DNA from: Pseudomonadota bacterium
Lineage (GTDB): Bacteria; Pseudomonadota; Gammaproteobacteria; Pseudomonadales; Moraxellaceae
Length of the DNA: 43,124 bases
Assembly (NCBI GenBank): GCA_021804485.1
Contig: JAJZHM010000006.1
Coordinates: 1-43,124 of the forward strand
Reading direction: 5' to 3'
Shown: piece by piece, positions 7,926-11,810 of the stretch
Numbering within the stretch: position 1 is the first letter of the stretch
Layout of the letters: every line of letters starts with the position of its first letter
The notes under the pieces: model-generated
What the model was told of the DNA's origin: nothing
Databases searched by the model: none
The model's input: the letters and a program-made list of their open reading frames with translations, nothing else
Made by a program: the position numbers and the translations under genes

Positions 7926-8936
7926 TCAATTTAACAAATCCTCAAGACAGGTTACTTCGAAAATAGCCTCGCTCCATGCAATCAATTCATCAGGACTCGC
8001 CGACTGCAGCCTTTGTAACGCCCATGCAGGCAACAATCCAAAGCGCTTGGCCAACTGGCGTTCAAGAATTTCAACCCGACCTAAATCACGGCCCCGTTCC
8101 ATGCCCCGTTCCATGCCGCGCTCCATGCCGCGCTCCATGCCGCGCTCCATGCCGCGCTCCATGCCACGCTCCATGCCACGTTTCATACCGCGTTTCATAC
8201 CGCGTTCCATGCCCTGTTCCCAACCATCGCTTAAAGCCTTCTGTCGGACGTTATTCCAACTCTCTGTGAAGAAAACACGCTGCTGCATGGCATCTTCTTC
8301 CTCACGGGTCATATTGGAATAGTCAGCAATCTCAAAAGCCCGCACAATACTGGGATTCTCTTGTAGGACTGGGGGAATCATCTTCAGATCACGGGCTTTC
8401 TTCAAAAAATACAGCCAGCGGTCCTGATCCGTAGACAACTGTTGTTCTTTTTTGGTGAACTTGGGCAATTCAACAAACACCAGTTCCAGATCATCATGAT
8501 AAACAGCTCCCTTGCTGCTACGCATTTTGAAGGTGTTGATGATTCCGACATCATCCTTGAACATCACAAAGTCCGTGATGGTCAATGCAATCACCTCCGT
8601 CAGCAAGTGATACGCTTCACTGCTGCCCAATTGATTGGCATAGGCCTTACAGGCGTTATACAACACTCGCTGTTCAAACCCTTGCATGTTTAAGACCTGC
8701 ATCTCGATAATGTAGTTCTTGCCGTTTTCATCACGAGCCCGCACATCTACAAAGCTTTCTTTCATTCCCTGAATGCGGGGCGCCTGATATGGGTCCAAAA
8801 TTTCCACCTCAGCAATGCAGTAGGGAGAGGATAATCCCAAGATGGCATTCAAAAAAGACACCAGAATCTCATGACTATGATCCGAGCCAAAAATCTTTTT
8901 GAACGCATAATCAGTTTTTGGATTAAGAAAACGCAT
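7926..8936 (-). CDS. Rpn family recombination-promoting nuclease/putative transposase (PD-(D/E)XK)
   Basis: MRFLNPKTDYAFKKIFGSDHSHEILVSFLNAILG ... YIIEMQVLNMQGFEQRVLYNACKAYANQL is characteristic of the Rpn/PDDEXK family. Confidence 0.93.
   Translation of the reverse strand: MRFLNPKTDYAFKKIFGSDHSHEILVSFLNAILGLSSPYCIAEVEILDPYQAPRIQGMKESFVDVRARDENGKNYIIEMQVLNMQGFEQRVLYNACKAYANQLGSSEAYHLLTEVIALTITDFVMFKDDVGIINTFKMRSSKGAVYHDDLELVFVELPKFTKKEQQLSTDQDRWLYFLKKARDLKMIPPVLQENPSIVRAFEIADYSNMTREEEDAMQQRVFFTESWNNVRQKALSDGWEQGMERGMKRGMKRGMERGMERGMERGMERGMERGMERGMERGRDLGRVEILERQLAKRFGLLPAWALQRLQSASPDELIAWSEAIFEVTCLEDLLN
8094..8213 (-). repeat. 12-bp in-frame minisatellite, about 10 units encoding GM(E/K)R
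   Basis: Repeated ccatgccgcgct-type unit. Translation: GMER GMKR GMKR, then GMER x7. Confidence 0.95.
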
Positions 8937-9082
8937 GACGCCATCGCTCCTCTACACACCTACGTACATTATCCATCACATCGGCTCAGGCTGTCATTCT
9001 CGACAGCAATTAAATTTCTCCAACGGCAACATCCTCCAGGTCACACGGAGAATTACAGCTCATCAGATCTTTTGAGCGAGCA

Positions 9083-9336
9083 GGCCAAATACGGTGCAAT
9101 AGAGCAGCGGACTCATCAAAAGGTGACTTGCTGCAGAAATGCAGCTTGAAAAATCGGGTTAATTCAGGGAAACCTAAAGCCAAAAGGCTAAGGCAATCCT
9201 GAGCCAAGCCAGAACTACAGTTCCGGAAGGTGCAGAGACTAGCGGAGAGGTTTAGCCCTCTTAATAACCGCCTTGAACGCCTGACACCTGAACAGGCAAT
9301 ATTGTGCCGAGTTCGACTCTCGGGGGGGGGCCACCA
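9083..9336 (+). pseudogene. tRNA-Ile(CAU)-like relic interrupted by a group I intron
   Basis: 5' piece GGCC...AGAGCAGCGGACTCAT. 3' piece has a perfect T-arm CCGAG-TTCGACT-CTCGG (9307-9323), then a G-run and GGGGCCACCA. D-arm and acceptor 5' strand are degenerate; the G-run has 2 extra G. Confidence 0.6.
9117..9298 (+). ncRNA. Degraded group I intron (tRNA/IC3-like core); 3' end approximate
   Basis: TTCAGGGAAACCTAAAGCC AAAA GGCTAAGGCAATCCTGAGCCAAGCC ... CGGAAGGTGCAGAGACTA matches the P/Q/R core of cyanobacterial tRNA-Leu and Azoarcus tRNA-Ile introns as recalled. P1 with U-G pair, P2 with GAAA loop, P3, P4 and P5a can be drawn. The 3' strand of P7 (S element) was not found. Confidence 0.75.
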
Positions 9337-9338
9337 TC

Positions 9339-9376
9339 TATCAAGCCCCCAGCTCTTGTCAGCTGGGGGCTTGATA
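9339..9376 (+). terminator. Perfect 16-bp inverted repeat directly after the tRNA-like CCA
   Basis: tatcaagcccccagct-cttgtc-agctgggggcttgata; no clear T-tract follows. Confidence 0.55.
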
Positions 9377-9456
9377 AAATCACCGAATAATCTGAATATC
9401 GGGAACAAGCAGGCGGGCGTGGATGAAGGAACCAGCGTGAGCCAACTTACGAACGA

Positions 9457-10518
9457 TCAATTACTCCAACCCGGTAAGCAGATTCGACCCGAATCCACGT
9501 TCAAGGCTGATTTTGCCCAAGAAAGGCTGTGCCAATCATGCGCCTTCGCCAATTCAAGCACATACGGCCACAACACACTCGACAAAGCTTCTGTCGAGGA
9601 TCGAGGCACGACACCAGGAAGGTTGGTAATCGCCGAATGAAGCACGCCTGCTTCGAGGTAATAAGGCTCTGAATGGCTGGTTGGTCGAATGGTTTCGATG
9701 CACCCCCCTTGATCAATCGCAATATCAATCACCACCGAACCAGGCTGCATCGCCTCGATCCAGCGGCGCGGCACGATCTTCGGCGCTTTGTTCCCGGGAA
9801 TCAGCACGGCACCAATCAGCAAATCGGCCTGAGCAATGGCCTGACGCATCGGTTCCTGCTCCGCAGGCAAAGCAGAGATACAGGGATGCAGCGCACTCAG
9901 CCGTTCCCATACACTATTTTTGCGGTCAAAGACGAGTACACGCGCACCAAGACGTGCAGCATTTAAAGCGGCCTGGGTGCCTGCCACACCACCACCAAGA
10001 ACCACGACTTGTGCAGGCGGTATTCCGGCAATGGCTGTCAGTAACTGGCCTTTGCCTCCGGATGAGCGACAGAGCAACTGTGCACCTAGCTGAATGGACA
10101 ATGCCCCAGCAATTCGACTCATGGGCACCAGCAAAGGCAGCTGACCCTGCTCATCCATCAAGGTCTCAAACGCTAAGGCTGATACACCCCGATCCGCCAG
10201 CGCCTGGGCTAATACCGGCTCGGCAGCCAAATGCAGGTAGCAAAAAAGCAGTTGGCCAGGCCTAAGCAAGCCAACTTCATGCGCCTGGGGTTCCTTGACC
10301 TTGACCAATAACTCAGCCTCAGCATAAACCGCTACCGCATCCCGACAGATTCGTGCGCCCGCGTTCTGATAAGCAACATCGCCAAATCCGGCAGCCACAC
10401 CCGCCCCTGCTTCAATCAGAACATCCTGACCCATTCGCATCAGCTCAGCAACAGCCCAAGGAGTCAGTGCCACCCTGCCTTCCTGATTCTTGCATTCCCG
10501 CACAATACCGATTCGCAT
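9457..10518 (-). CDS. ald: Alanine dehydrogenase
   Basis: MRIGIVRECKNQEGRVALTPWAVAELMRMGQDVLIEAGAG ... VVVLGGGVAGTQAALNAARLGARVLVFDR. The start at 10518 has an aggaggtttg RBS; the track ORF extends to 10593. Confidence 0.92.
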   Translation of the reverse strand: MRIGIVRECKNQEGRVALTPWAVAELMRMGQDVLIEAGAGVAAGFGDVAYQNAGARICRDAVAVYAEAELLVKVKEPQAHEVGLLRPGQLLFCYLHLAAEPVLAQALADRGVSALAFETLMDEQGQLPLLVPMSRIAGALSIQLGAQLLCRSSGGKGQLLTAIAGIPPAQVVVLGGGVAGTQAALNAARLGARVLVFDRKNSVWERLSALHPCISALPAEQEPMRQAIAQADLLIGAVLIPGNKAPKIVPRRWIEAMQPGSVVIDIAIDQGGCIETIRPTSHSEPYYLEAGVLHSAITNLPGVVPRSSTEALSSVLWPYVLELAKAHDWHSLSWAKSALNVDSGRICLPGWSN

Positions 10519-11456: not shown

Positions 11457-11810
11457 TCAAATTTGACCCAGTATTGGCCATAAATTTTGACCCACCTCCA
11501 CCACTGAACCACCGCTCATTTTCTGCTTGAGACGGTAACTGTCACCGCCCAGCATAAAGACTTGGGCGTGGTGTATAAGCCGATCTACAATCGGAACGGC
11601 AATATTTTCGTCAACGAAGTAATCGCCCCAGCGGCTGAAATCCTTGTTGGTGGTCAAAATTACTGACCGGTATTTATACAAAGCATGGATCAACTGGAAC
11701 AGGTTGTGATTGTTCTGCCGGTTCATGGGCAGATACCCAAGTTCGTCAATCAAGACGAGATCGTAGCGGCATAGCTGGACGACACCTGTCTCGGTAACCG
11801 GACGCTGCAC
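11457..11810 (-). pseudogene. IS21-family IstB C-terminal remnant
   Basis: RYDLVLIDELGYLPMNRQNNHNLFQLIHALYKYRSVILTTNKDFSRWGDYFVDENIAVPIVDRLIHHAQVFMLGGDSYRLKQK. The N-terminus with Walker A is missing and no IstA was seen. Confidence 0.88.

Follow-up and report, generated by a model that had tools for sequence, protein, structure and literature searches.

The Azoarcus tRNA-Ile intron is a small, ORF-less group I intron that is inserted after the CAU anticodon and has a U-G pair at the splice site, a GUG guide and a GAGACTA core. In Azoarcus sp. BH72, this tRNA-Ile(CAU) group IC3 intron is reportedly of the type of Reinhold-Hurek and Shub. Its crystal structures are cited in PMC3984707. The window analyzed here, a stretch of 43,124 nucleotides from a draft genome of the Moraxellaceae, contains a copy that shares with the Azoarcus intron the insertion after CAU, the U-G pair and GUG guide, the GAGACTA core, the small size and the lack of an ORF, but differs from it in having no P7 3' strand, no P9, no 3' splice site and only half of the tRNA (Table 1). 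Cyanobacterial tRNA-Leu(UAA) group I introns, compared by way of their Rfam family and of L005 and L006, two tRNA-Leu introns of proteobacteria, belong to the same broad class and exhibit the same core motifs, but they occupy another tRNA and another insertion site. We interpret the locus as a recently inactivated tRNA-Ile(CAU) gene, with a probability of roughly 0.9; it is an ordinary gene relic, a pseudogene that is well documented and of a familiar kind.

Table 1. Features of the tRNA-Ile(CAU) relic and its group I intron, in window coordinates
Feature	Position	Strand	Description
Remnant sigma70-type promoter	9072-9100	+	TTGAGC-17-TGCAAT, homologous to TTGACC-17-TACAAT of the intact G002 gene (locus L002)
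5' exon remnant, tRNA-Ile(CAU)	9101-9116	+	D-stem end, anticodon stem 5' strand GCGGA, CAT at 9114-9116
Remnant of group I intron (Azoarcus-type), from P1 to 5' half of P8	9117-9307	+	RF00028, 53.9 bits; 94% to G002 intron
P1	9113-9126	+	TCAT/GTGA, U-G at 5' splice site; kept in relatives
P2	9130-9145	+	GCTGCA-GAAA-TGCAGC
P3 5' strand TCGGG	9154-9158	+	Partner CCTGA at 9280-9284; Rfam alignment
P4 (TTCAGG/CCTGAG) around P5, with P5 tip AGCC-AAAA-GGCT	9163-9203	+	
P6/P6a region with GAAC-TACA-GTTC	9203-9231	+	Rfam alignment
P7 5' strand GACTA	9237-9241	+	3' partner TAGTC deleted
Extra hairpin between P7 and P3	9242-9271	+	GCGG-AGAGG-TTTAGC-CCTCT-TAATAA-CCGC; covariation
P3 3' strand CCTGA	9280-9284	+	Derived C to T at 9282, giving G-U
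62-nt deletion junction	9302-9307	+	P8-loop TTGTGC fused to tRNA variable loop/T-stem TTGGTGC
tRNA 3' remnant	9307-9336	+	T-arm CCGAG-TTCGACT-CTCGG, over-long G-run, acceptor 3' strand, CCA
Near-perfect inverted repeat, 3' of relic	9340-9376		

A degraded group I intron core had been predicted for this site, with the absence of a hit to the Rfam Intron_gpI covariance model (RF00028) as the outcome that would speak against it. The search was run, and the model matches 9104-9295 (E 4.7e-11 for the window) above its gathering score of 50 bits, this being the sole gathering-level match to an RNA family in the 43 kb and the sole group I match in the genome. Every motif quoted in the original prediction lies where it had been placed, and P1, P2, P4 and P5 form; P1 with its U-G at the 5' splice site, P3, P4 and P6 are all present, and the P4/P5 element carries a variant tetraloop-receptor-like CCUAA..UAAGG. 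Only the P3 helix has to be redrawn: the Rfam alignment pairs TCGGG with CCTGA instead of GGGTTAA with TTAGCCC, and the bases of TTAGCCC vary across relatives and sit in the separate covarying hairpin at 9242-9271. The P7 5' strand indeed lacks its partner, no TAGTC occurring between it and the tRNA 3' end, which leaves the guanosine-binding site incomplete, and the 3' splice site (terminal G, P9.0/P10) is missing from this copy, as it lies inside a 62-nt deletion. Judged from these elements of its sequence, the intron is a group I remnant and not a working member. Assignment to IC3 of the Azoarcus tRNA-Ile type is consistent with the insertion after the CAU anticodon, the small size and the lack of P5abc in the window sequence and intact relatives; the L9 tetraloop that would dock with the P5 receptor is missing from the window, where P9 is deleted, and P9 of the intact intron in the same genus (L002) is of the GTTGGGGAAACCCAC type. 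A c-di-GMP-I riboswitch at 9147-9222 was rejected, its 19.7 bits (E 0.17) being below the cut-off of 35.

The predicted host was a tRNA-Ile(CAU) gene, and this is what the intact relatives in the genus and family are, each with the same intron. In the window, 9101-9336 reads, in order, the D-stem end and 5' anticodon strand with CAT, the intron core, the T-arm, a run of nine G and CCA; the 5' exon remnant matches query positions 23-39 at 100%, and the 3' remnant matches query positions 49-72 at 100%. The CAU anticodon, the T-arm and CCA are thus all in place, and the T-arm is perfect, as had been noted, and is followed by G9-CC-ACCA. With the acceptor strand aligned, the run reads G9CC versus G6CCC of the intact gene, which agrees with the two surplus bases first suspected. 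ARAGORN called no tRNA in the window, and a complete acceptor stem, D-arm and anticodon stem pairing are absent, the 5' acceptor and 3' anticodon strands having been deleted. The D-arm had likewise been described as unpaired; in the comparison with L002, its 5' half falls within a 32-nt deletion. Upstream, 20 of the 29 promoter bases are identical to those of L002, a level matched by none of 3000 shuffles.

Intact versions were found by the RF00028 search of 98 genomes (that of the window plus relatives) in G002 of the same genus (78.8 bits; JAJZUM010000004, L002) and in G004 (L004) and G019 (L003) of the same family. The L002 intron, of 243 nt, is inserted after CAT in a perfect cloverleaf, GGGCCTC...GCGGA-CTCATAA-TCCGT...CCGAG-TTCGACT-CTCGG-GGGGCCC-A-CCA, in which all acceptor and anticodon-stem pairs form. 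The same intron occurs at the same insertion site in Herbaspirillum sp. RV1423 (L076), a Methylophilaceae MAG (L075) and another beta MAG. The introns of L002, L004, L003, L076 and L075 exhibit 85-95% identity to the window over the core and share with it the insertion site and an extra hairpin, but they are complete, whereas the window copy has two deletions. Against L002, the window is 94% identical across 9100-9300, with no nucleotide match to the remainder of that locus; beyond ald and its neighbor, no synteny was found, either with the intact G002 locus or with the region around ald in G001 and G002. Among 349 genomes of the family, the intron is present at this site in three genera only (g1, g3 and g12), many other members matching the tRNA exons without an intron, and related introns were found in a further 20 genomes of a class sample and 7 of an order sample. 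TAGTC is kept in every related intron with a readable core motif (the script found no motif in L149 and L158), and no other truncated form was found among the family genomes and the class and order samples, introns cut by contig ends aside.

Comparison with L002 also reveals how the gene was broken. Directly after the -10 box, 32 bases of L002 are missing, so that the window goes straight to D-stem AGAGC, and with them went the acceptor 5' strand and the D-arm 5' half. A further 62 bases are missing between the near-repeats TTGTGC (P8 loop) and TTGGTGC (variable loop/T-stem); this deletion takes the 3' strands of P8 and P7 (the latter TAGTC), all of P9, the 3' half of the anticodon stem and the 3' splice site. 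Both gaps, their content and the existence of intact relatives can be read directly from the aligned sequences. The idea of a decayed intron and tRNA therefore holds as far as the loss of parts for splicing and tRNA folding is concerned, but not as gradual erosion, since two discrete deletions are seen instead and the surviving core is almost without mutations. This core, of 189 bases, is about 95% identical to that of L002, with nine aligned differences, about four of them apparently derived in the window; no helix is broken by a substitution, and the change at 9282 turns G-C into G-U. Because the helices are unbroken and the core is so well conserved while the adjacent ald is far more diverged from its G002 counterpart (79% identity in protein, 73% in DNA), the intron appears to have been under constraint until recently, which would make its decay recent. 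The small number of core mutations, however, counts on the other side, in that it gives no sign of long-standing neutrality.

The history we propose begins with a normal tRNA-Ile(CAU) gene that would have had a sigma70-type promoter and contained, behind its CAU anticodon, a group I intron of the Azoarcus tRNA-Ile type that was small and had no ORF. The shorter deletion would have brought the -10 box of the promoter up against the D-stem, and the longer one, between the near-repeats, the P8 loop up against the T-arm. If still transcribed, the relic RNA would be expected neither to bind guanosine nor to fold as a tRNA: from group I chemistry, loss of P7 would abolish the guanosine site and loss of the 3' splice site would abolish exon ligation. 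Having no P7, no 3' splice site and no tRNA fold, the locus is probably dead and should neither splice nor yield tRNA. It may provide a snapshot of the joint death of a self-splicing intron and a tRNA gene, in which the intron was neither excised nor eroded; rather, the deletions would have locked it in, breaking gene and ribozyme together. Relics of such tRNA genes escape tRNA finders.

Loss of this gene might have been tolerated through an intact gene in an unassembled gap, perhaps beside contig C101. The check for a second tRNA-Ile(CAU) found none in the 94%-complete assembly, so any compensating copy is unseen. However, this draft assembly has 175 contigs, and elongator tRNA-Met, tRNA-His and tRNA-Ile(GAU) are likewise absent among its 31 tRNA matches; since tilS, encoding TilS, is also present and AUA codons are in use, an intact tRNA-Ile(CAU) copy presumably exists elsewhere in the organism. 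When the sole trace of a tRNA in a draft genome is a relic, this can hint at an assembly gap. Contig C101 begins 3 nt beyond the expected CCA end and is 96.5% identical to window 9343-9627. Its positions 1-488 (L092) form a second copy of the relic's downstream sequence, with most of ald deleted, and there the counterpart of the inverted repeat reads as a terminator for an opposing ald. These data would fit a duplicated segment with ald retained in one copy and, maybe, the tRNA in the other; they would also fit C101 being a co-binned strain variant.

A rival view is that the gene is really intact and that two segments were dropped in assembly, for example because two copies were collapsed into one or strains were mixed. 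The similar second segment on C101, the G9 homopolymer and the ending of two relatives' contigs at this very intron (G001:C87 and G013:C21), besides the number of contigs, would all lend themselves to such an artefact, but two separate deletions, the changed G-run and the substitutions would all have to be erroneous, and the flanks are continuous and differ from those of the intact loci in other genomes; we regard an artefact as very unlikely. Slightly less probable still is a truncated RNA that continues to be transcribed and has been retained as a regulatory or non-splicing RNA, for which one might point to the promoter-like element, the few core substitutions, the unbroken helices and a folding z-score of -2.4. 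Recent decay accounts for the same features, however, and nothing similarly truncated recurs in the 349 family genomes or the class and order samples. That the locus still yields a working tRNA, its parts supplied in trans or by a permuted gene, would suit an assembly that lacks an intact copy but is scarcely credible, as the missing 3' intron part and exon and the missing 5' exon are nowhere else in the assembly, and at the locus both the 5' anticodon strand and the acceptor 3' strand are without the opposite strand with which to pair.

The recently inactivated gene also led to a conserved element of its intron family. Nearly all related proteobacterial introns seen have a hairpin between the P7 5' strand and the P3 3' strand, built from two stems, one outer and one inner, with a conserved UUAAUNA bulge on the 3' side, which the Rfam model handles as an insertion, of 34 bases in its alignment. 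It is carried by window 9242-9271, L002-L004, L074-L076 and L134-L160; the tRNA-Leu intron L005 has it too, with compensatory stems, and L006 lacks it. In 18 sequences, picked for short loops and including related ones that share events, 97.5% of cells are paired, and covariation is 0.613 versus 0.252 in shuffles (0 of 500), falling to 0.22 or less in slid versions. L074-L076 were retrieved by a pattern that fixes the 5' strand, and the weight therefore rests on the GCGG/CCTG group switch and the inner-stem changes. To our knowledge, the Azoarcus structure has no such extra hairpin, whereas the window copy and its relatives have one. It might be speculated, although we are doubtful, that the hairpin, in a position comparable to P7.1/P7.2 of group IA, sets apart a structural subtype among the tRNA-Ile(CAU) group I introns of proteobacteria that has yet to be described; a search of the open-licence literature brought up neither an account of a relic like this one nor one of an IC3 intron with a hairpin between P7 and P3.

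Other group I introns were met in the course of these comparisons. In another genus of the family (L008/L016, G031:C39 about 63164-63490; also G006 and G021), a different group I intron splits tRNA-Ile(CAU) at a nearby site, apparently just 5' of the anticodon. In L141 and L146, an intron with the same core lies in a tRNA resembling tRNA-His(GUG); neither its exact splice site nor the usual U-G pair is obvious there. An origin of the relic from a mobile element or phage was rejected, there being no plasmid match, no exact match to a viral contig and only a distant relative in jumbo phages. In Klebsiella phage Muenster (302849-302995; L128, 1501-1647) and related jumbo phages, an unannotated sequence shares about 75% identity with the tRNA-Ile exon and intron together and lies within a phage tRNA cluster, near an HNH endonuclease gene. 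Close to the relic, window 11457-11810 holds a truncated fragment of the IS21 ATPase IstB, which points to transposon decay, and a PD-(D/E)XK nuclease of the transposase family (Rpn-type), which includes a GMERGMERG repeat tract, adjoins the relic at 7926-8936.
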